Positions 8,661-62,096 of a stretch of 64,000 nucleotides of DNA are shown here, piece by piece. This DNA is from Pagrus major (lineage: Eukaryota; Chordata; Actinopteri; Spariformes; Sparidae). Position numbers and translations under genes: made by a program. Positions within the stretch are counted from its first letter, which is position 1; each line of letters opens with the position of its first letter. The stretch covers positions 7,680,741 to 7,744,740 of the forward strand of contig NC_133224.1 of the NCBI RefSeq assembly GCF_040436345.1, read 5' to 3'. Under the pieces are notes generated by a model. The model was not told the origin of the DNA. It ran no database searches and was given only the letters and a program-made list of their open reading frames with translations.

Positions 8661-9773
8661 TTGACATTTGAGCATGATATAAGAAGGAAATGGTCGCCGT
8701 CTGAATAAGGTCTATGACGTCCAATCATGAACTAAGGACGGACTGGATCTTGCAGACATTTTCAACCCCAATGGACAAAACATTTTTAGTCTTTCACAGT
8801 CTAACAATTAACCAGGTCAAATTCCTTCCTCACTTTTCCTTCTGAGCTGCAGTTGCATGCTGCTTTTGGACCAGACCGAGGATTAACCGAGCCTGCTGTT
8901 TAAGTCCAGTACAAACTACCGTATTCCTGCGTCCGCTTGATTTGGCTTCTGCAGTCATTATCCGACCACAGAGTCCTGACTCCGTGACTCAGCTGTCAGT
9001 TCCTGAGTCCAGGAGACGCAAACAAGGTGTCAACTCGACTGTGGAGGACTGATCGGTGATGGAGGGAGGCGAGTAGACAGATGAATAACAGAATGCAGCG
9101 GACATGAACGCCCAAGTCAGCTCTTCTGCCTGATGTCATATGCTGCTTGGCCCTCGGGCATCATTGGAAATGTGCATGTGAGGATCTCATCACATGCGTT
9201 TGTAGACGCAGTCTCATTATATCATTATATTTTCTTGTTTGAGGGTTCTTCAAAATGTCTGAAGTGTGTCGAAGATGGTTATGTGTCAAATCTTTGGTTT
9301 AAAGCAGACAGGTTCCTTCTTTTATTCTCCTGTAGATTGCTTCAAGTTTGGGAAACTCATCTCTTTCCACACTGTCGAAGTCATATAAAATATATATCCA
9401 ACCCAATACTCTTTCTTCTCTTCCCTTAAATATGTCTGGAGCGTAATCATTTTTACACATTTCTCAAATACTCAGCCTGACAAACTAGTCTCTTTGGAGG
9501 CTTTAGGATCTCTGCTGGAATATAAAATACATGTCTGTGGGTTTGAACAATGTTTGGCCGAACAGCTTGAGCTCATATTGACTGACTCATCAGTGGGTCT
9601 GCAGGGTTTAAAAGTGCAATCATGCAGCAGACATACTGCAGCAGAATAAATTGTGATTATACAGCTTTGCATAGGAATGATCATAAAACACATGATCACA
9701 CATTCTGTAAGAACTCTGTGGTTTATTTGTATGCACAAGAGCATAGTAACTGAGATGAACAGTAGTTGTGTCA

Positions 9774-10310
9774 TGGTTTGTGGTTTTAGTTCAGTTGATT
9801 TTGTTGTTTTATGTTGAGAGGTTTATACTTATGTGTCCTGTTTTACTATCCACTTCCTGTCATTGTCTGTTTTCCCGCCCTTTTTCTGTGTACACTAGTG
9901 TTTCAATTGTTCTTTAGCTCTTGTGAATTTATATATTTGAATGTTTAACATCCTGTGCCTTCTATGTATCTTGTTCCTGTGCCTGTTCCCCAGTTCTCAT
10001 GTGTCTCATGTGTCTCATGTGTTCTCCGTAGCTTTTGTTTTGTCTTCAGTTAAGTATTTATTTTTAATTTTTTCTTTGGACTCCTTTGCCTGCTTTTTGT
10101 TGTTTGGATTTAGTGGTTATAGTTCAGTTGATTTCCTATTTTATGTTGAAAAGTGTATCCTTGTGTGTCATGTTTTACTTTTTTCTATCTCCTGTCTATG
10201 TCTGTTTCCCCACCCTTTTCTGTGTACACCTGTGTTACATCTATTCACAAGCCCTTGTGTATTTAAATCTGTGTTTTTCTTTTACTCTTCGTTGGTTTGT
10301 CTATTTTCAT
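9774..10310. repeat. Duplicated T-rich element flanking the minisatellite
   Basis: Two diverged copies about 333-360 bp apart share a series of landmarks in order: 'tagttcagttgatt' (9,787 and 10,120), 'ttttatgttga', 'gtcctgttttac/gtcatgttttac', 'tgtctgttt' and 'catcctgtgcct' (9,949 and 10,309). The first copy also has three tandem 'tcatgtgtc' units at about 9,997-10,020. The copies look like the tail of a retroelement. The second copy runs straight into the first inverted minisatellite unit, so this element is the likely source of the repeat monomer. Confidence 0.75.
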
Positions 10311-10350
10311 CCTGTGCCTTCATTATCTCTTGTGTTCCTGTGTCTTTCAT
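10311..10350 (-). repeat. Inverted minisatellite unit at left array boundary
   Basis: This is about one and a half units in the opposite orientation to the array. After an 8-base loop (aagagaca, 10,351-10,358) the reverse complement follows at 10,359-10,389. The arms are about 30 bp and differ by one 1-2 base indel, so the boundary can form a hairpin. Confidence 0.9.
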
Positions 10351-10358
10351 AAGAGACA

Positions 10359-13300
10359 ATGAAAGCACAGGAACACAAGAGATAATGAAGACAGAGGAAC
10401 ACAAGAGATAACGAAAGACACAGTAACACAAGAGAAAATGACAGACACAGGAACACAAGAGATAATGACAGACACAGGAACACAAGAGATAATGAAGTAC
10501 AGGAACACAAGAGATAATGAAGGCACAGGAACATAAGAGATAATGAAAGGCACAGGAACACAAGAGATAATGAAGTACAGGAACACAAGAGATAATGAAG
10601 TACAGGAACACAAGAGATAATGAAGTACAGGAACACAAGAGATAATGAAGACAGAGGAACACAAGAGATACTGAAGTGCAGGAACACAAGAGATAATGAA
10701 GGCACAGGAACACAAGAGATAATGAAGTACAGGAACATAAGAGATAATGAAGTACAGGAACACAAGAGATAATGAAGTACAGGAACACAAGAGATAATGA
10801 AGTACAGGAACACAAGAGATAATGAAAGGCACAGGAACACAACAGATAATGAAGTACAGGAACACAAGAGATAATGAAAGGCACATGAACAAAAGAGATA
10901 ATGAAGTACAGGAACACAAGAGATAATGAAAGACACAGGAACACAAGAGATAATGAAGTACAGGAACACAAGAGATAATGAAAGGCACAGGAACACAACA
11001 GATAATGAAGTACAGGAACACAAGAGATAATGAAAGGCACATGAACAAAAGAGATAATGAAGTACAGGAACACAAGAGATAATGAAAGACACAGGAACAC
11101 AAGAGATAATGAAAGACACAGAACCACAAGAGATAATGAAAGACACAGGAACACAAGAGATAATGAAGTACAGGAACACAAGAGATAATGAAGGCACAGG
11201 AACACAAGAGATAATGAAAGACACAGGTACACAAGAGATAATGAAAGACACAGGAACACAAGAGATAATGAAGTACAGGAACACAAGAGATAATGAAGTA
11301 CAGGAACACAAGAGATAATGAAGTACAGGAACACAAGAGATAATGAAAGACACAGGAACACAAGAGATAATGAAGTACAGGAACACAAGAGATAATGAAA
11401 GGCACAGGAACACAAGAGATAATGAAGTACAGGAACACAAGAGATAATGAAAGGCACAGGAACACAAGAGATAATGAAGTACAGGAACACAAGAGATAAT
11501 GAAAGACACAGGAACACAAGAGATTATGAAAGACACAGGAACACAAGAGATAATGAAAGACACAGGAACACAAGAGATAATGAAAGACACAGGAACACAA
11601 GAGATAATGAAAGGCACAGGAACACAAGAGATAATGAAGTACAGGAACACAAGAGATAATGAAGTACAGGAACACAAGAGATAATGAAGTACAGGAACAC
11701 AACAGATAATGAAAGGCACAGGAACACAACAGATAATGAAGTACAGGAACACGAGATAATGAAAGGCACATGAACAAAAGAGATAATGAAGTACAGGAAC
11801 ACAAGAGATAATGAAAGACACAGGAACACAAGAGATAATGAAGTACAGGAACACAAGAGATAATGAAAGGCACAGGAACACAACAGATAATGAAGTACAG
11901 GAACACAAGAGATAATGAAAGGCACATGAACAAAAGAGATAATGAAGTACAGGAACACAAGAGATAATGAAAGACACAGGAACACAAGAGATAATGAAAG
12001 ACACAGAACCACAAGAGATAATGAAAGACACAGGAACACAAGAGATAATGAAGTACAGGAACACAAGAGATAATGAAGGCACAGGAACACAAGAGATAAT
12101 GAAGGCACAGGAACACAAGAGATAATGAAAGACACAGGTACACAAGAGATAATGAAAGACACAGGAACACAAGAGATAATGAAGTACAGGAACACAAGAG
12201 ATAATGAAGTACAGGAACACAAGAGATAATGAAGTACAGGAACACAAGAGATAATGAAAGACACAGGAACACAAGAGATAATGAAGTACAGGAACACAAG
12301 AGATAATGAAAGGCACAGGAACACAAGAGATAATGAAGTACAGGAACACAAGAGATAATGAAAGGCACAGGAACACAAGAGATAATGAAGTACAGGAACA
12401 CAAGAGATAATGAAAGACACAGGAACACAAGAGATTATGAAAGACACAGGAACACAAGAGATAATGAAAGACACAGGAACACAAGAGATAATGAAAGACA
12501 CAGGAACACAAGAGATAATGAAAGGCACAGGAACACAAGAGATAATGAAGTACAGGAACACAAGAGATAATGAAAGGCACAGGAACACAAGAGATAATGA
12601 AGTACAGGAACACAAGAGATAATGAAAGACACAGGAAAACAAGAGATTATGAAAGACACAGGAACACAAGAGATAATGAAAGACACAGGAACACAAGAGA
12701 TTATGAAAGACACAGGAACACAAGAGATAATGAAAGACACAGGAACACAAGAGATTATGAAAGACACAGGAACACAAGAGATAATGAAAGACACAGGTAC
12801 ACAAGAGATAATGAAAGACACAGGAACACAAGAGATAATGAAGTACAGGAACACAAGAGATAATGAAAGACACAGGAACACAATAGATAATGAAGGCACA
12901 GGAACACAAGAGATAATGAAGTACAGGAACACAAGAGATAATGAAGTACAGGAACACAAGAGATACTGAAGACAGAGGAACACAAGAGATACTGAAGTGC
13001 AGGAACACAAGAGATAATGAAGGCACAGGAACACAAGAGATAATGAAGTACAGGAACATAAGAGATAATGAAGTACAGGAACACAAGAGATAATGAAGGC
13101 ACAGGAACACAAGAGATAATGAAATACAGGAACATAAGAGATAATGAAGTACAGGAACATAAGAGATAATGAAGTGCAGGAACACAAGAGATAATGAAAG
13201 GCACATGAACAAAAGAGATAATGAAGTACAGGAACACAAGAGATAATGAAAGGCACAGGAACACAAGAGATAATGAAGTACAGGAACACAAGAGATAATG

Positions 13301-16300
13301 AAAGACACAGGAACACAAGAGATTATGAAAGACACAGGAACACAAGAGATAATGAAAGACACAGGAACACAAGAGATTATGAAAGACACAGGAACACAAG
13401 AGATAATGAAAGACACAGGAACACAAGAGATAATGAAGTACAGGAACACAAGAGATAATGAAGTACAGGAACACAAGAGATAATGAAGTACAGGAACACA
13501 AGAGATAATGAAGGCACAGGAACACAAGAGATAATGAAGTACAGGAACACAAGAGATAATGAAGGCACAGGAACACAAGAGATAATGAAATACAGGAACA
13601 TAAGAGATAATGAAGTACAGGAACATAAGAGATAATGAAGTGCAGGAACACAAGAGATAATGAAAGGCACATGAACAAAAGAGATAATGAAGTACAGGAA
13701 CACAAGAGATAATGAAAGGCACAGGAACACAAGAGATAATGAAGTACAGGAACACAAGAGATAATGAAAGACACAGGAACACAAGAGATTATGAAAGACA
13801 CAGGAACACAAGAGATAATGAAAGACACAGGAACACAAGAGATTATGAAAGACACAGGAACACAAGAGATAATGAAAGACACAGGAACACAAGAGATTAT
13901 GAAAGACACAGGAACACAAGAGATAATGAAAGACACAGGTACACAAGAGATAATGAAAGACACAGGAACACAAGAGATAATGAAGTACAGGAACACAAGA
14001 GATAATGAAAGACACAGGAACACAATAGATAATGAAGGCACAGGAACACAAGAGATAATGAAGTACAGGAACACAAGAGATAATGAAGTACAGGAACACA
14101 AGAGATACTGAAGACAGAGGAACACAAGAGATACTGAAGTGCAGGAACACAAGAGATAATGAAGGCACAGGAACACAAGAGATAATGAAGTACAGGAACA
14201 TAAGAGATAATGAAGTACAGGAACACAAGAGATAATGAAGGCACAGGAACACAAGAGATAATGAAATACAGGAACATAAGAGATAATGAAGTACAGGAAC
14301 ATAAGAGATAATGAAGTGCAGGAACACAAGAGATAATGAAGGCACAGGAACACAAGAGATAATGAAATACAGGAACATAAGAGATAATGAAGTACAGGAA
14401 CATAAGAGATAATGAAGTACAGGAACACAAGAGATAATGAAAGGCACATGAACAAAAGAGATAATGAAGTACAGGAACACAAGAGATAATGAAAGACACA
14501 GGAACACAAGAGATAATGAAAGACACAGAACAACAAGAGATAATGAAAGACACAGGAACACAAGAGATAATGAAGGCACAGGAACACAAGAGATAATGAA
14601 AGACACAGGAACACAATAGATAATGAAGGCACAGGAACACAAGAGATAATGAAGTACAGGAACACAAGAGATAATGAAGTACAGGAACACAAGAGATACT
14701 GAAGACAGAGGAACACAAGAGATACTGAAGTGCAGGAACACAAGAGATAATGAAGGCACAGGAACACAAGAGATAATGAAGTACAGGAACATAAGAGATA
14801 ATGAAGTACAGGAACACAAGAGATAATGAAGGCACAGGAACACAAGAGATAATGAAATACAGGAACATAAGAGATAATGAAGTACAGGAACATAAGAGAT
14901 AATGAAGTGCAGGAACACAAGAGATAATGAAAGGCACATGAACAAAAGAGATAATGAAGTACAGGAACACAAGAGATAATGAAAGGCACAGGAACACAAG
15001 AGATAATGAAGTACAGGAACACAAGAGATAATGAAAGACACAGGAACACAAGAGATTATGAAAGACACAGGAACACAAGAGATAATGAAAGACACAGGAA
15101 CACAAGAGATTATGAAAGACACAGGAACACAAGAGATAATGAAAGACACAGGAACACAAGAGATAATGAAGTACAGGAACACAAGAGATAATGAAGTACA
15201 GGAACACAAGAGATAATGAAGTACAGGAACACAAGAGATAATGAAGGCACAGGAACACAAGAGATAATGAAGTACAGGAACACAAGAGATAATGAAGGCA
15301 CAGGAACACAAGAGATAATGAAATACAGGAACATAAGAGATAATGAAGTACAGGAACATAAGAGATAATGAAGTGCAGGAACACAAGAGATAATGAAAGG
15401 CACATGAACAAAAGAGATAATGAAGTACAGGAACACAAGAGATAATGAAAGGCACAGGAACACAAGAGATAATGAAGTACAGGAACACAAGAGATAATGA
15501 AAGACACAGGAACACAAGAGATTATGAAAGACACAGGAACACAAGAGATAATGAAAGACACAGGAACACAAGAGATTATGAAAGACACAGGAACACAAGA
15601 GATAATGAAAGACACAGGAACACAAGAGATTATGAAAGACACAGGAACACAAGAGATAATGAAAGACACAGGTACACAAGAGATAATGAAAGACACAGGA
15701 ACACAAGAGATAATGAAGTACAGGAACACAAGAGATAATGAAAGACACAGGAACACAATAGATAATGAAGGCACAGGAACACAAGAGATAATGAAGTACA
15801 GGAACACAAGAGATAATGAAGTACAGGAACATAAGAGATAATGAAGTGCAGGAACACAAGAGATAATGAAAGGCACATGAACAAAAGAGATAATGAAGTA
15901 CAGGAACACAAGAGATAATGAAAGGCACAGGAACACAAGAGATAATGAAGTACAGGAACACAAGAGATAATGAAAGACACAGGAACACAAGAGATTATGA
16001 AAGACACAGGAACACAAGAGATAATGAAAGACACAGGAACACAAGAGATTATGAAAGACACAGGAACACAAGAGATAATGAAAGACACAGGAACACAAGA
16101 GATTATGAAAGACACAGGAACACAAGAGATAATGAAAGACACAGGTACACAAGAGATAATGAAAGACACAGGAACACAAGAGATAATGAAGTACAGGAAC
16201 ACAAGAGATAATGAAAGACACAGGAACACAATAGATAATGAAGGCACAGGAACACAAGAGATAATGAAGTACAGGAACACAAGAGATAATGAAGTACAGG

Positions 16301-19100
16301 AACACAAGAGATACTGAAGACAGAGGAACACAAGAGATACTGAAGTGCAGGAACACAAGAGATAATGAAGGCACAGGAACACAAGAGATAATGAAGTACA
16401 GGAACATAAGAGATAATGAAGTACAGGAACACAAGAGATAATGAAGGCACAGGAACACAAGAGATAATGAAATACAGGAACATAAGAGATAATGAAGTAC
16501 AGGAACATAAGAGATAATGAAGTGCAGGAACACAAGAGATAATGAAGGCACAGGAACACAAGAGATAATGAAATACAGGAACATAAGAGATAATGAAGTA
16601 CAGGAACATAAGAGATAATGAAGTACAGGAACACAAGAGATAATGAAAGGCACATGAACAAAAGAGATAATGAAGTACAGGAACACAAGAGATAATGAAA
16701 GACACAGGAACACAAGAGATAATGAAAGACACAGAACAACAAGAGATAATGAAAGACACAGGAACACAAGAGATAATGAAGGCACAGGAACACAAGAGAT
16801 AATGAAAGACACAGGAACACAATAGATAATGAAGGCACAGGAACACAAGAGATAATGAAGTACAGGAACACAAGAGATAATGAAGTACAGGAACACAAGA
16901 GATACTGAAGACAGAGGAACACAAGAGATACTGAAGTGCAGGAACACAAGAGATAATGAAGGCACAGGAACACAAGAGATAATGAAGTACAGGAACATAA
17001 GAGATAATGAAGTACAGGAACACAAGAGATAATGAAGGCACAGGAACACAAGAGATAATGAAATACAGGAACATAAGAGATAATGAAGTACAGGAACATA
17101 AGAGATAATGAAGTGCAGGAACACAAGAGATAATGAAAGGCACATGAACAAAAGAGATAATGAAGTACAGGAACACAAGAGATAATGAAAGGCACAGGAA
17201 CACAAGAGATAATGAAGTACAGGAACACAAGAGATAATGAAAGACACAGGAACACAAGAGATTATGAAAGACACAGGAACACAAGAGATAATGAAAGACA
17301 CAGGAACACAAGAGATTATGAAAGACACAGGAACACAAGAGATAATGAAAGACACAGGAACACAAGAGATAATGAAGTACAGGAACACAAGAGATAATGA
17401 AGTACAGGAACACAAGAGATAATGAAGTACAGGAACACAAGAGATAATGAAGGCACAGGAACACAAGAGATAATGAAGTACAGGAACACAAGAGATAATG
17501 AAGGCACAGGAACACAAGAGATAATGAAATACAGGAACATAAGAGATAATGAAGTACAGGAACATAAGAGATAATGAAGTGCAGGAACACAAGAGATAAT
17601 GAAAGGCACATGAACAAAAGAGATAATGAAGTACAGGAACACAAGAGATAATGAAAGGCACAGGAACACAAGAGATAATGAAGTACAGGAACACAAGAGA
17701 TAATGAAAGACACAGGAACACAAGAGATTATGAAAGACACAGGAACACAAGAGATAATGAAAGACACAGGAACACAAGAGATTATGAAAGACACAGGAAC
17801 ACAAGAGATAATGAAAGACACAGGAACACAAGAGATTATGAAAGACACAGGAACACAAGAGATAATGAAAGACACAGGTACACAAGAGATAATGAAAGAC
17901 ACAGGAACACAAGAGATAATGAAGTACAGGAACACAAGAGATAATGAAAGACACAGGAACACAATAGATAATGAAGGCACAGGAACACAAGAGATAATGA
18001 AGTACAGGAACACAAGAGATAATGAAGTACAGGAACACAAGAGATACTGAAGACAGAGGAACACAAGAGATACTGAAGTGCAGGAACACAAGAGATAATG
18101 AAGGCACAGGAACACAAGAGATAATGAAGTACAGGAACATAAGAGATAATGAAGTACAGGAACACAAGAGATAATGAAGGCACAGGAACACAAGAGATAA
18201 TGAAATACAGGAACATAAGAGATAATGAAGTACAGGAACATAAGAGATAATGAAGTGCAGGAACACAAGAGATAATGAAGGCACAGGAACACAAGAGATA
18301 ATGAAATACAGGAACATAAGAGATAATGAAGTACAGGAACATAAGAGATAATGAAGTACAGGAACACAAGAGATAATGAAAGGCACATGAACAAAAGAGA
18401 TAATGAAGTACAGGAACACAAGAGATAATGAAAGACACAGGAACACAAGAGATAATGAAAGACACAGAACAACAAGAGATAATGAAAGACACAGGAACAC
18501 AAGAGATAATGAAGGCACAGGAACACAAGAGATAATGAAGGCACAGGAACACAAGAGATAATGAAGGCACAGGAACACAAGAGATAATGAAAGACACAGG
18601 AACACAAGAGATTATGAAAGACACAGGTACACAAGAGATAATGAAGTACAGGAACACAAGAGATAATGAAGTACAGGAACACAAGAGATAATGAAAGACA
18701 CAGGAACACAAGAGATAATGAAGTACAGGAACACAAGAGATAATGAAGTACAGGAACACAAGAGATAATGAAGTACAGGAACACAAGAGATAATGAAAGG
18801 CACAGGAACACAAGAGATAATGAAGTACAGGAACACAAGAGATAATGAAAGGCACAGGAACACAAGAGATAATGAAGTACAGGAACACAAGAGATAATGA
18901 AAGACACAGGAACACAAGAGATAATGAAGTACAGGAACACAAGAGATAATGAAGTACAGGAACACAAGAGATAATGAAAGGCACAGGAACACAAGAGATA
19001 ATGAAGTACAGGAACACAAGAGATAATGAAAGACACAGGAACACAAGAGATAATGAAAGACACAGGAACACAAGAGATAATGAAAAAAATGCACAGGAGC
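10359..19100 (+). repeat. Giant minisatellite with higher-order structure
   Basis: Continuous tandem array. The constant core is 'aggaacacaagagataatga', followed by a variable tail: 'agtac' (25 bp unit), 'aggcac' (26 bp), 'aagacac' or 'aaggcac' (27 bp). Recurrent point variants (gattat, catgaacaaaag, gatact, caatag, cataag, caggtac, cagaacaac) mark unit types. Ordered strings of these variants recur with offsets of 466, 473, 1,733 and 2,206 bp in the right two thirds (identical starts at 13,246/14,979/17,185 and 13,712/15,445/15,918/17,651). Offsets of about 890-911 bp occur on the left (11,447/12,358). By length there are about 330-340 units. No gene, spacer or transposase is inside. The array is stop-poor on the - strand, which gives long meaningless open frames. 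Confidence 0.97.
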
Positions 19101-19140
19101 ATCTCTTATGTTCCTGTGCCTTCATTATCTCTTGTGTTCT
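19101..19140 (-). repeat. Inverted minisatellite unit at right array boundary
   Basis: After 'gaaaaaaatgcacaggagc' the sequence flips: about one and a half units in the orientation opposite to the array (same orientation as 10,311-10,350), then unrelated sequence. The last forward unit and this one can pair as a hairpin. Confidence 0.9.
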
Positions 19141-22100
19141 TCTATCCATGGAAATATGAGATGATCAGAGCAACAGCTCCACCTAGCATAAAATACTGAG
19201 CAACCAAGTTCCAACAGGGTTGGAGGTCAGGGTTGAGTGGTGGGTTTGCATCCTTGGTGAAATCAAACATCAGTGATCTTTACCTAAACCTAACCCAGTA
19301 GTTTTTGTTCCTTAACCTAACCAAACCTGGCAAGAAGGCTTTGCACGTCACACACAGACGCTAAAGTGTACTTTGTTTATATGTATCAGACGCCGTGGTG
19401 GGACAAAGCATTGCGACGACCTGGGATGAGAAGGTGTTGGTGATTTTAGTTAGGATCAAACTGAAAAGTCCAAAAGTCCGGGTCAAACGAGGTAGGTGTG
19501 AAAGAGCTTGTAGACTGCATTAGTTACTTGTGTCAAACTCTGCACAGTGAAGGTCAAACATTCAACTTTTTGAGTGTCAGGGGACTTTTACCTGTACTGT
19601 AGTGAAGGTGTGAGTTAAAAAACATCACGAAATACACTTTCTGAGCCGTGCCGTGACACTTATTGTAATGCAGCAATCTGTCTTCTGTCCGTCATCTTAC
19701 CGCCCCTGAAGAGCTCTCGAGTTGACACAGAGAGGTCTGAACAGCAACACACCGCCTGTCTCCATGACCTCCACAGAGCATATGATATGAGCCTACACAC
19801 AGTATCTGACACACACACACACACACACTGACAGTGTCTTACATGAGCAGTGTCCGTGTCTCTGCTCATTTCTGTCCCAGTGAGTCAGAGATGCTTTGCA
19901 CAGCGTTGAGACCACAATACATCACTTCCATTTTAGTTCACACTCTGAAGGGCTGTGGGCGGCAAGAGGGTTGTGTGTTTGTGTGTGTGTGTGTAGAGAG
20001 AGAGAGCAAGAGGGCAAAAAAGGAAAGCGATAACCCATGTGCCTCCATGCATTCCAATTAATTAGCATTAGCCCGGCGCTGTTGGTTTCCGAGTGGCTGC
20101 AGATTGCCACACTAGTGGTTTTTCCCACTCAGTGGATGGACGAACTGGCCCACAGTGATCTGGCATGTGAAAGATGCTGAAGAGAGGGAACTGTCCTAAC
20201 ATGGCAAACACCCAGCGATGAAACACAGAGAGCCACATCTGAAGCAGAGTTTCACCCCCTGAGGGCGTTCAGCGGACCGCAGATTGAGAAAATGGGACGT
20301 TAAAAAACACATCACACATCCCGACCTTGGACTGATCCGGCTTCTTGTGCCAGTTTGCTCAGAAATGAGTTACTTGCATTAGACAGACGCACAAAATGTT
20401 GCTATCTATTAGTTTTTGATGATAGTTTCTGTCAGAGCACAATGGATAATGGAAAAGGTTGCAGGATATTAGTTTTTGAGGTATTAAGGTGTTTCATCAC
20501 AGACACAGTGTAATTTTGAGACAGCAATTTTGTAATTTAGCCCCAAAATGCAGTCAGTATTAGCAGCGCTCTAACTACCTGTGGGAACACTGGGGTCACA
20601 TCTGTATTTTTAGGTTGAATGGACGTCTGTTTGTTGGTTTCTACTAGGCCTACTTTGGTCCAGACATAAATATCTCTGTTAGATGGGTTATGAAATCTTA
20701 TACAGACATTCATGGTCCCCAGAGGGTTAATCCTACTGATTTTCTGGATAATAATGTTAGTAGTATTCACTCGTTAAAGTCACTAAGCTAGATCACTATA
20801 AATGAATGATACGCCTTACTAATTGCTCTAAGAACGAGTACTAGCATCCTGTCACAATGTAAAACGCTGGTTCTGGTTAAGTGACGAGTTATCATGAAGG
20901 CTAGGAAAAAGAAAAAAGCATTTAAACCTTCATTTAGGGAAATAAAATGCTATTTTTTTTTAACATTGCTTAAATAACCTAAACACAAGATCCACTTTTT
21001 GGAGCTTTCAACTGCACATCATGCTTTATTTTGTCTTAAATCGGCATGTCACACTTCACATTACGGGCTGTGATTTCCTAGAAGTTTCTGGAAAGAGTTA
21101 TATAATCCGGCACTACAGTGGAAAAAAAGAGACGAAGCTGATCATTCATTACACTTGAAAGTTTCTGGTGTTTGGTTTGTTTTGTGTTTTTTTGCAAATA
21201 CAGTATAATTCAGCAGTTAATTTAATAAATAAAACATGTAAAAATCCTGCTTTCTCTGGGGAGGCTGGGGAGATTTAGACTCATGATATCAGCAGTTTAA
21301 AAAATCTGGCTACAGCCCTGAACGATGCGTTCAAACATTCAAAACAATGTTAATTTTTAGCTTCTGTGTCAAAAACAAGAGCAGGGAAAGAAGAGCAAAG
21401 AGCAAAACCACATCTTCTGTAACTGTAGAGGAAAACATGGGAACTGTAAACTCATTCACTCCCTCATGCTGGTTAGTAAGTGTCATTGTCGTAATTTCCA
21501 AAATGGCAGGACTTCACAGTTACACTCATCATCTGCAGGGATGAGTCCAGAGAGGCACGAAAATGGCAAGAAAACAAGTCTTACTGGGAACAAGATAACC
21601 AACCTGATTGGATAAAAGAGTGTGCAGAAGCATGATTCGTGGCAGAGGCCCAGAGAGTAATGATCCACTGCCAGGCACCAAACAACATCTGGAGCTGGCA
21701 GAGCAGCAACAAGCTCTGCAATTAGGAAAAAAATGAGGAATGTGCGTAAGCAGGGACATTATCAGGTTTTAAATCTAATCTGATCAGAAATGAGATAATG
21801 TGGCGTGAGAGGAGCGTGAAGATGAGTTCGTGGTCCTCTCACTTTTTGAAGAAGTTGAAGTAAAAGCAAGATAGTGGGTCCATCCACTCCTGGTGAAGGG
21901 GATGTCGTGACACGTACACATTAATCCAAATTGTGACGTCGGAAAAGTGGATACACAGATATTGGTCGAGATCAGGGTTAATCGTTGTCCTGTGATCAGT
22001 CTGTTTTACCGCACTACGGTGGCTCTGAATGGTCAAACAACCCTCTAAAGGCCTTTGATGTATGACATACAACGGATGAAAGTTTCGGAGTCAGTTTGTA

Positions 22101-51681: not shown

Positions 51682-54600
51682 TTATCTGACTCCACCTCCC
51701 AGTTTCTGCAGCACTCCCAGGCCTTTTTCATCGTACTCTGCCTTGCTCAGCCAGAAGGAGTCCTTGTCTTTCATGATGTTGGCCAGCACCGCTCCGCCGA
51801 GGAACACCAAGTGTTTACGCCTGGGAGGGTCCTCGATGCGGATCTTAAACTTCTACATGAACAAAGAGAGGAGACGTCAGCTTTGCATTTCTGTTTTATT
51901 ACAAAGCAAGTCTAGTTGCTATATAAACACGGGGAAAGTATCAAAACGCTCGACCCACAGAGGGATGTAAACATCTGTACTCAGAAACTTTCCCTTCAAA
52001 CGAGCCCTCAGGACTTCTGTAAGGTTCTGATGTCACAGCTATACAGTCACAGCCGTGGTTGCAAAAAACACTGCGAGATTTGGTGGGAAAACATGGTGGG
52101 CGTTGCCTGCTCAGGCCTGTGAGAGCCGACCAATCAGAGCAGAGACTGGGCCTTAAAGAAACAGGCACTAAAATAAGAGTTCAGTCATTGTCTTGTTTGT
52201 TTTTTCCCATTATGATTAGTTAAATATGAAAAAATGGAAATAATGGACCTTTAACTCTTGTACGCCGTACTATACCACCTACAAAATATGTTTTAAAAAT
52301 ACAATTAACTGTCAACACATGACAGGAAAACTCTTAAAACAAGTCTGAACATCAACAGATCGCAGGGGAGTAGGCAGCACTGTCTCACTCTCCAGTAAAG
52401 CAGACATATTTCTGTATATTTAAATCCTTACTGATAGTTTCTCAGTGTCTCCGTCCAGCACCCTCTCCAGGTAGAGCTGCTTGATCTCTCGCTCCAGTCT
52501 GGATGGCAGGCCGGGGTACATGGTGGTCCCTCCTGACAGAACAATGTGCTTATAGAAGTCGGCCCTGCTCAGAAAAAACAAATCCAAGACTGGAAATTAG
52601 CATGTTTTGTTTGTCTCATATCTTGGTTTTATGTTAATACGGTAGCTGTGGGGTAAAAGCACAGACAGCAGTGAGGAGACTCAGACCTGAGGTCAATGTC
52701 TGCAGCCTGGATGGTGTTAAACAGCAGCTCAGCCACTCCCGCTCCCTCCACGTTGATGAGATGAGGCTGGAAGAGAGCTTCAGGGGCCCCGAACCTCTCT
52801 CCACCCACCTTCACTTGCCGGCCGTCGGGGAGCTACACCGGAGAAAGGAAGCAGCTCAGAAAAATCTCAACATCATGGTGTCAGACAGTCCCTGCTACAC
52901 AGCAACAAAAGATTTTATGTGAATGTTGGCAGACATGGAAAGATCCATAATAACACCACTGACAACCCTCTCATGTTTGTACACTAATTAGAAAATTAAG
53001 CTGGAGCTAGAGGCCAGTTAGCTTAGCTTAGCTTAAACCATTTAACTTCATGTAAATCCACATGGTATGACTTGTTTTTCGAGCACTTCAGGAATTGGTG
53101 GGAGGATATTTTACCTTACCGTTTCCTCCTGTGTCTTTATGCTAAGCTAAGCTAATGGGCTGCTGGCTGGAGCTTCATATTTACCACACAGGCACAACAG
53201 GCTATACCTCTACAGGACCTATATAGCCACAGACAGATACATTACCTCATAGCTGTGCATCCTGCTGATAGCTGTGTTTGAAAACTACTTTTAGTAATGC
53301 AACGCTTTTCTTCCACCCTATCCAGATCAAGATCTTTAATTCAGGAAGCAGCAGCGCTGGTACCACTTTTGTCCACAGGGGGCGCCAGAATCAACAAAAT
53401 AAGAGTCCCTCGAAGCCGCTTTAAGTAGATTAAAATAAAAAAAGGCTCTCTTAGGATTTTGTTCTGTATCATACTGTGAATGTCTCCACCAGGTAGGTGG
53501 TCTCCGTGGCCAGGCGCTGCTCCTGCTCGATGTTGTATCCCACGTAGCAGAGCTTCTCCTTCAACATGCGCACAGTCTCGAAGTCGGCCGTGTGGTTGAA
53601 GGCGTAGCCGCGGAGAAGCAGGAGCTGATGGTGGGAAGAAGATAAACGTTTGTGTTTTCTCTGCTCGTTTTATTTTCCTGATCAATATTTCAGACTCTAT
53701 CTCACAGCTCACCTTAATGAGGTAGCGTGTGATGTCACGTCCTGCGATATCCAACCTGCGCGTGAGGTGGGGTAAAGAAAAGCCCTCATACACCGGGCAG
53801 ATGTGTGTGACACCGTCCCCCGAGTCGACGACCACGCCGGTCAGCAAACCTGCAGACGAGAAACAAATTCCCAAACATTTGTAATTTGTGAATCCATCTT
53901 TGAGGTCAGTCAGTTAATTTTCCAAGAGTTTTGATGTCTTACCCTGAGCGTACAGAGTGAGCACAGCCTGGATCGCCACATAAATGCCGTGGAACTGGTA
54001 CTTCTCAAACATGACCTCGGCGATCTTCTCTCGGTTCTTGGTGGGGTTCATGGGCGGCTCGGTCAGCAGGATCTTAGAGAAGTAAATAAGAACTGATTGA
54101 ATAAAAAACCTGACTTTGTATCGTGTTTTTCCAGGCATGGCATGGAAAGGTTTTACCCAATTAGCCTCGCTCTACCTTGCATTCTGTCGGGTCGATGTTC
54201 AGGCGGTCGGGACCGAAGGTGTGGTCCCACAGGTGGAGCATGTCGTCCCAACAGCGCACCATGCCGTTCTCCATGGGGTAGGCCACCTCCAGCATGGAGC
54301 GACACTCGCTGGCCTCCTCACCCACCATCAGGTCCTGATGGGGCGAGAACGGGAGGAGATCAGCCCGAGTGGAGGCCGAGTTTAAAGGGATAAGAGCCGA
54401 CCTGTCTGTCTGTTCTATACATTTGAGTGATGCTACGTGTGTTAATTCTGACGCCGTCCTGTTTTTGCGTCGCTTTATTCGATTACTTACAGATACGATG
54501 AACATAAACACTATAATGAAGATGCTTGTGATTATAAAATATCCTTTACTTTCACATTTTACTCTCTGTGGCGGTGACCTTTGCCCTCCTGCTCTAAATG

Positions 54601-59669: not shown

Positions 59670-61831
<2,162 letters not shown>

Positions 61832-62096
61832 CTCGGCTGGTTGCGTCTCAGTGGCTCACCGAAGAAGTTTGGAGACGTTCGCAAGACCGCATGAAACGAT
61901 GTATCCAACCGCGCGTAAAGCTCCGTGCGCTCGCTGCTTTCTTTTTTAAGTGTACTGACTCTCGCAGCATCTATCTGCTGCCTCGCTTACGCAACTCTTT
62001 CCTGGTATTTGGGCAAATGTTAAAGCCGGTGCACAACGGCGGCTCCAGGTTTCCAGAGTCGAGCCGAATAAAGAAAGAGGACAAGGAGTCAAACTG

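Follow-up and report, generated by a model that had tools for sequence, protein, structure and literature searches.

A minisatellite array joined to a solo-LTR-like element in Pagrus major, and its probable origin from a short direct repeat

Minisatellites are described as arising out of LTRs and also, at direct repeats of 5-10 bp, through slippage or unequal crossing-over (PMC6947457, PMC3389668, PMC9659126). Two mouse minisatellites, Ms6-hm and Hm-2, lie within MaLR LTRs (Kelly 1994, as cited in PMC9659126 and PMC6947457). In the model of Haber and Louis (1998), as it is described in PMC6947457 and PMC3389668, direct repeats of 5-10 bp flank the future unit. The background work cited in this field also includes Taylor and Breden (2000) and PMC8096271. 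The starting points of minisatellites are stated to be difficult to study (PMC3389668).

Here we describe an array in a 64,000-nucleotide stretch of P. major DNA (the window), which adjoins a T-rich element with the features of a solo LTR. Since LTR and direct-repeat origins have already been described, the array would represent a known type of event. The comparison was made within one genome, and the order of the steps proposed below is deduced from it.

The T-rich copies and the left junction

The original prediction placed two diverged copies of a T-rich element to the left of the array. Both are real, and they lie about 333 bp apart with 75-92% ungapped identity, depending on the piece compared. 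Copy 1 occupies 9769..10094 on the plus strand, its boundary with copy 2 being approximate. Copy 2 (10095..10345, plus strand) is joined to it, and its right side is truncated by the array. As copy 2 begins without the first 5' bases of the family and abuts the inner part of the right half of copy 1, the arrangement suggests that the two copies arose by local tandem duplication rather than by two insertions.

As originally read, cctgtgcc occurs in copy 1 at 9952 and 9976 (24 bp apart) and cctgtg in copy 2 at 10311 and 10337 (26 bp apart), and these coordinates are exact. The block of copy 1, CCTGTGCC...CCTGTGCC (9952-9983), is unamplified and is followed by LTR-type sequence. A 9-bp unit is also present about three times at 9995-10022 of the window, which is a second slippage place of the element within copy 1. 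The 26 bases of copy 2 between the two words (10311..10336, minus strand) had been taken for one array monomer in reverse orientation, and their reverse complement is exactly identical to the array unit of class C (unit C). We call this stretch the seed block; it is opposite in orientation to the array body. Like the repeats of the Haber and Louis model, the CCTGTG pair at 10311/10337 is a direct repeat of 5-10 bp that encloses one unit beside the array, with the spacing of unit C.

In copy 2 the LTR-type sequence ends at about 10345, three bases past the second cctgtg. After the second CCTGTG (10337-10342) come TCT, which is present in LTR copies too, and then TTCAT, and the plus-strand array runs from 10351. 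Positions 10343-10352 read TCTTTCATAA; the corresponding sequence of copy 1 is CCTGTTCCCC, and there LTR-type sequence goes on past the junction position. The end of the left inverted edge (10337..10350, minus strand) is made up of the second CCTGTG, three LTR-compatible bases and five array-like bases, and on the strength of these five bases only, 10346-10350 may be array rather than LTR sequence. Because the LTR of copy 2 stops just past the second CCTGTG, copy 2 represents a cut LTR/array junction and not an intact state before amplification. The window had been thought to preserve both the state before amplification and the amplified product. This holds in so far as copy 1 and the dispersed copies are unamplified; it does not hold for copy 2, a truncated junction from which the LTR continuation is absent.

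The dispersed family and its direct repeat

The T-rich element is a dispersed repeat with TG..CA ends, although several copy ends deviate from TG or CA. We searched for the family in its own genome (785.9 Mb, 25 contigs) using copy 2 and copy 1 as queries, which gave 659 and 860 first-look candidates, respectively. Of these, 40 each were scored, and 60 loci were cut out, leaving 45 copies after the window's own copies and duplicates had been dropped. The many first-look candidates indicate that the family is large, so the family counts given here come from a sample, whose members were picked by similarity to the window copies with queries that each contained a copy of the block.

Both ends were located in 16 copies, which start near TGTCATGG and finish near TGTGACA. 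Flanks resembling a target-site duplication, with at least 4 of 5 flanking bases agreeing, were found in 5 of these 16 copies and were lacking in the other 11. When one flank was shifted by 1-15 bases, the mean count was 0.43 (range 0-3, over 30 shifts), and 0.13 was expected when flanks were swapped between copies. The family thus has what is looked for in solo LTRs, TG...CA ends and a target-site duplication of 4-6 bp (5/16 copies against 0.43 and 0.13 in the controls), and we call the T-rich element solo-LTR-like only.

At the homologous place, family copies carry CCTGTG-like words with 0, 1 or 2 modules of 9 bp between them. Spacings of 8, 17 and 26 bp, corresponding to these three states, were found in 4, 12 and 3 copies (19 of the 45 could be classed); the classes were assigned by script, which entered L022 and L062 as one-module copies although by eye they look like two, and assigned L031 no module on the basis of a questionable first word. 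More than two modules were present in none of the 19 classable copies. A genome-wide scan for the unaltered 26-bp state that allowed up to 3 mismatches gave 7 places, and the reversed-pattern control gave none. Unamplified states with the CCTGTG direct repeat are therefore seen in copy 1, at these 7 genomic places and throughout the ladder of 19/45 copies. The proposal that a direct repeat enclosing one unit was the starting point agrees with these results: the CCTGTG pair is an old feature of the family, and the monomer matches the block it encloses. Inspection of other copies for their unit number, as had been suggested, gave the 0-2 modules just described and the array-type block in no other copy.

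The CCTGTG block is not the sole slippery place of the element, as weak short tandem arrays detected by TRF are scattered all over it in the 45 family copies. At locus L037 (C19:25817265-25820422), a family copy at 1348-2288 is tandemly multiplied, with pieces spaced 79-212 bp, and a 17-bp stretch is doubled around the CCTGTG block homologous to the seed.

Copy 2 has two modules, the first of which is altered. The first module of copy 1 is at an edit distance of 2 from that of the array, and those of 11 other blocks in the 26-bp state are at 4-7; as a chance level, a score of 2 was also reached at one of the 386 other positions in the two window copies. Compared over all 32 nt of the block, copy 1 has an edit distance of 7 to the seed and is no nearer than several other copies (6-10). 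The comparison of these modules gives moderate evidence that the altered first module predates the array.

The match between array and family exceeds chance. Exact matches of 18-22 nt to the array, read in the seed orientation, are present in 11 of the 45 copies, and the other 34 have none of at least 18 nt. No word longer than 15 nt was shared in either of two controls, one of 20 random sequences for each copy in which base-to-base transitions were preserved and one of an unrelated 8.7-kb window stretch, and with the array reversed in orientation the limit was 10 nt. We also scanned 786 Mb with a pattern of 29 bases running from LTR sequence into the seed, allowing up to 3 mismatches; this pattern catches class C units only. 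It was found at 44 places, of which one was exact (the seed), 31 were in array 1, one was at the right edge of array 1 and 11 were in a second array, while the control gave 0. An array-type block preceded by LTR sequence occurs exactly once, the other 43 of the 44 places being in the two arrays or at the right edge of array 1. A search for the left junction yielded two first-look candidates, and those of its 483 matches that were listed are all at the two array loci. The original prediction would have been refuted by the monomer turning up in many unrelated contexts; this was not seen, the class C block being confined to two loci in 786 Mb.

Two arrays and their edges

Array 1 (10351..19084, plus strand) consists of units of 25, 26 or 27 bp with a single exception of 23, and TRF reports 336.5 copies with a 25-bp consensus. 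Splitting at anchor words gave 329 units with seven double units left unsplit and 336 once these were split; they fall into 26 distinct variants, and unit C makes up 30 of the 336. Exact internal runs of 2230, 1756 and 1254 bp occur at shifts of 2206, 3939 and 1733, respectively, the run of 2230 bp (shift 2206) being the longest. These kb-scale runs indicate duplications of large blocks, which are recent if the assembly is correct, and slippage alone fails to account for them. There is no gradient towards the edges: the mean edit distance to the seed unit is 2.1 over the first 15 units, 2.2 for those in the middle and 1.8 over the last 15.

Open frames of up to 1276 aa run on the minus strand across 10282-19164 of the window. 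As the unit has no stops on that strand, we do not read them as a gene. No RNA family was found in the window at gathering thresholds. Elsewhere in the window, the minus strand has an ORF at 61409-61855 that we take to resemble a SIX-type homeobox protein, and an ORF at 53341-53913 with what is presumably an actin-like stretch.

The second array (array 2) lies about 1.8 Mb from array 1, at C10:9506092-9507833 (5593-7334 of L069), with 68.0 copies of 26 bp according to TRF; unit-like sequence starts about 65 bases before the TRF left end. Unit C is the commonest variant there (12 of 51 usable units, 60 in total). Array 2 is about five times shorter than array 1 and has nearly as many variants, 22 in the 51 units used compared with 26 in the 336 units of array 1, and three variants are common to both. 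A 259-bp local duplication flanks it on both sides (C10:9505766-9506018 and 9508592-9508850, within L069, C10:9500500-9510400); the two copies are 91% identical and also enclose a reversed, diverged LTR-like element. Such a site with a flanking duplication would fit copying during break repair. Within about 2 kb on either side of array 2 no family LTR with the needed block was found; the only clear LTR relative in these flanks is diverged and in reverse orientation.

The two arrays have different left ends and a shared right end. The common right terminus (19085..19149 of the window) comprises a spacer, about 1.5 inverted units (19101-19139) and a short tail. C10:9507815-9507898 matches window 19066-19149 with 98% identity over 84 bases, after which the two sites diverge. 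At full length the terminus was found at two places only among the matches listed (354 in total, 4 first-look candidates, 786 Mb).

The body of the array runs opposite to the LTR seed block and is bordered on both sides by inverted pieces, each about 1.5 units long. On the minus strand of the window, exact unit words were found only at 10319 and 19121, which are the two edges of array 1, and the stretch fetched around array 2 has one such place, its right edge; this exact-word scan passes over diverged inverted units within the arrays. The right terminus of array 1 folds into a hairpin with the last plus-strand units. Calculated with DNA parameters, the left-edge hairpin has -38.0 kcal/mol and the right edges -30.8 and -23.0, figures that stand without a shuffled control.

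No LTR remainder was recognised to the right of array 1, so its right boundary is unexplained. Some of the matches to the right of either array are to unit-like or simple sequence, and those to L014 and L023 are two isolated stretches of 29-33 bp outside those elements; none of them was accepted as LTR remainder. We likewise rejected a weak 26-bp match to the right of array 2 to L011 and L043 (one copy in two entries), and the reversed diverged relative to the right of array 2.

Origin of the array and known systems

We consider it probable, at roughly 70%, that the array is a minisatellite begun inside one dispersed solo-LTR-like copy, by duplication at CCTGTG followed by growth, inversion of the inside and copying between sites. 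Its origin in the LTR lineage by way of a short direct repeat is well supported. The 26-bp block would first have been doubled at the CCTGTG repeat by slippage or by unequal exchange, and the 8.7-kb array would have been built up in later steps, some of them duplications of hundreds to thousands of bases. Slippage alone leaves the reversed orientation of the body relative to the seed block unexplained, and the account needs a further step, either inversion or foldback. Inversion of the array's interior, or its copying back from a hairpin, may have come later and spared about 1.5 units at either end, which keep the original orientation. Since both arrays share the right inverted terminus, we infer that the already inverted array was copied with this terminus to, or from, the site 1.8 Mb away. 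The simplest history is growth in the LTR orientation, after which the inside was inverted, before copying to the other site. Foldback may instead have been part of the mechanism itself, the first duplicated block forming a hairpin at which replication switched strands and growth went on in the opposite orientation. We regard this as distinctly unlikely; if true, the terminus could be copied to a second site, and the minisatellite would have been born through a foldback intermediate and not by simple slippage.

The right terminus common to the two arrays means that one was copied, and this also suits an account in which the array arose elsewhere, at the second or a lost site, and joined the LTR copy through short shared words, so that array-type sequence came into the edge of copy 2 by conversion or at the junction itself. 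The end of the copy 2 LTR at the junction agrees with such a course, as does the wealth of variants in array 2 (22 in 51 units, against 26 in 336) despite its smaller length. The block of copy 2 could have been overwritten from the array, which would count against the origin we propose. However, the unit itself matches the LTR family over 18-22 nt, no family LTR bearing the needed block was found in the 2-kb flanks of array 2, and copy 1 has a similarly altered first module; we therefore think it unlikely, if worth keeping in view, that the array came from elsewhere. A near-identical hairpin terminus at two sites with different flanks could also mark the right end of a mobile element, of foldback or Helentron/HINE style, with the array as its cargo, and HINE elements are described as having central tandem repeats (PMC7492417). 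Yet among the matches listed the full-length terminus occurs at only two places in 786 Mb and the left ends of the arrays differ, and with the terminus found only twice we set this very improbable reading aside. No set of dispersed copies sharing both a left and a right end, as in Helentrons, was found, and the inverted pieces are about 1.5 units at two loci only, unlike the long terminal inverted repeats of tandem units in a foldback element. That the likeness of the T-rich element to the array is mere chance similarity of TG/TC-rich sequence is hardly credible. The element is rich in words like CTGTG and TCTTG and has weak short tandem repeats throughout, but the identity over 26 bp is exact, words of 18-22 nt are shared by 11 of 45 copies where the controls reach no more than 15, and the genome scan found the block with an LTR flank just once.

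Like Ms6-hm and Hm-2 as presented in PMC9659126, the array we favour as LTR-born would have arisen inside a transposon-like LTR; it differs from the mouse cases as described in being from a fish, in having its body inverted relative to the LTR block and in having a second array 1.8 Mb off. As in the model of Haber and Louis, a short direct repeat, here the CCTGTG hexamer pair, delimits exactly one unit, but the starting block varies in 9-bp modules, and the model as described has no inverted edges. A known fish case, as described, likewise involves slippage at separated short repeats and predicts an incomplete terminal unit. Both edges contain a partial unit here too, although these units are inverted. 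With Helentron/HINE elements, as far as PMC7492417 describes them, the locus shares a tandem array and a terminal hairpin-forming stretch, but only two places were found and they have no common left end. If inversion is part of growth, the locus would offer a test of foldback replication in the birth of an array. The inverted body is the unexplained part, and the type of origin is known, but it is rarely so easy to see and the record is unusually complete: one genome allows comparison of the parent family, the 9-bp slippage ladder, the unamplified neighbouring copy, the junction and both grown arrays.
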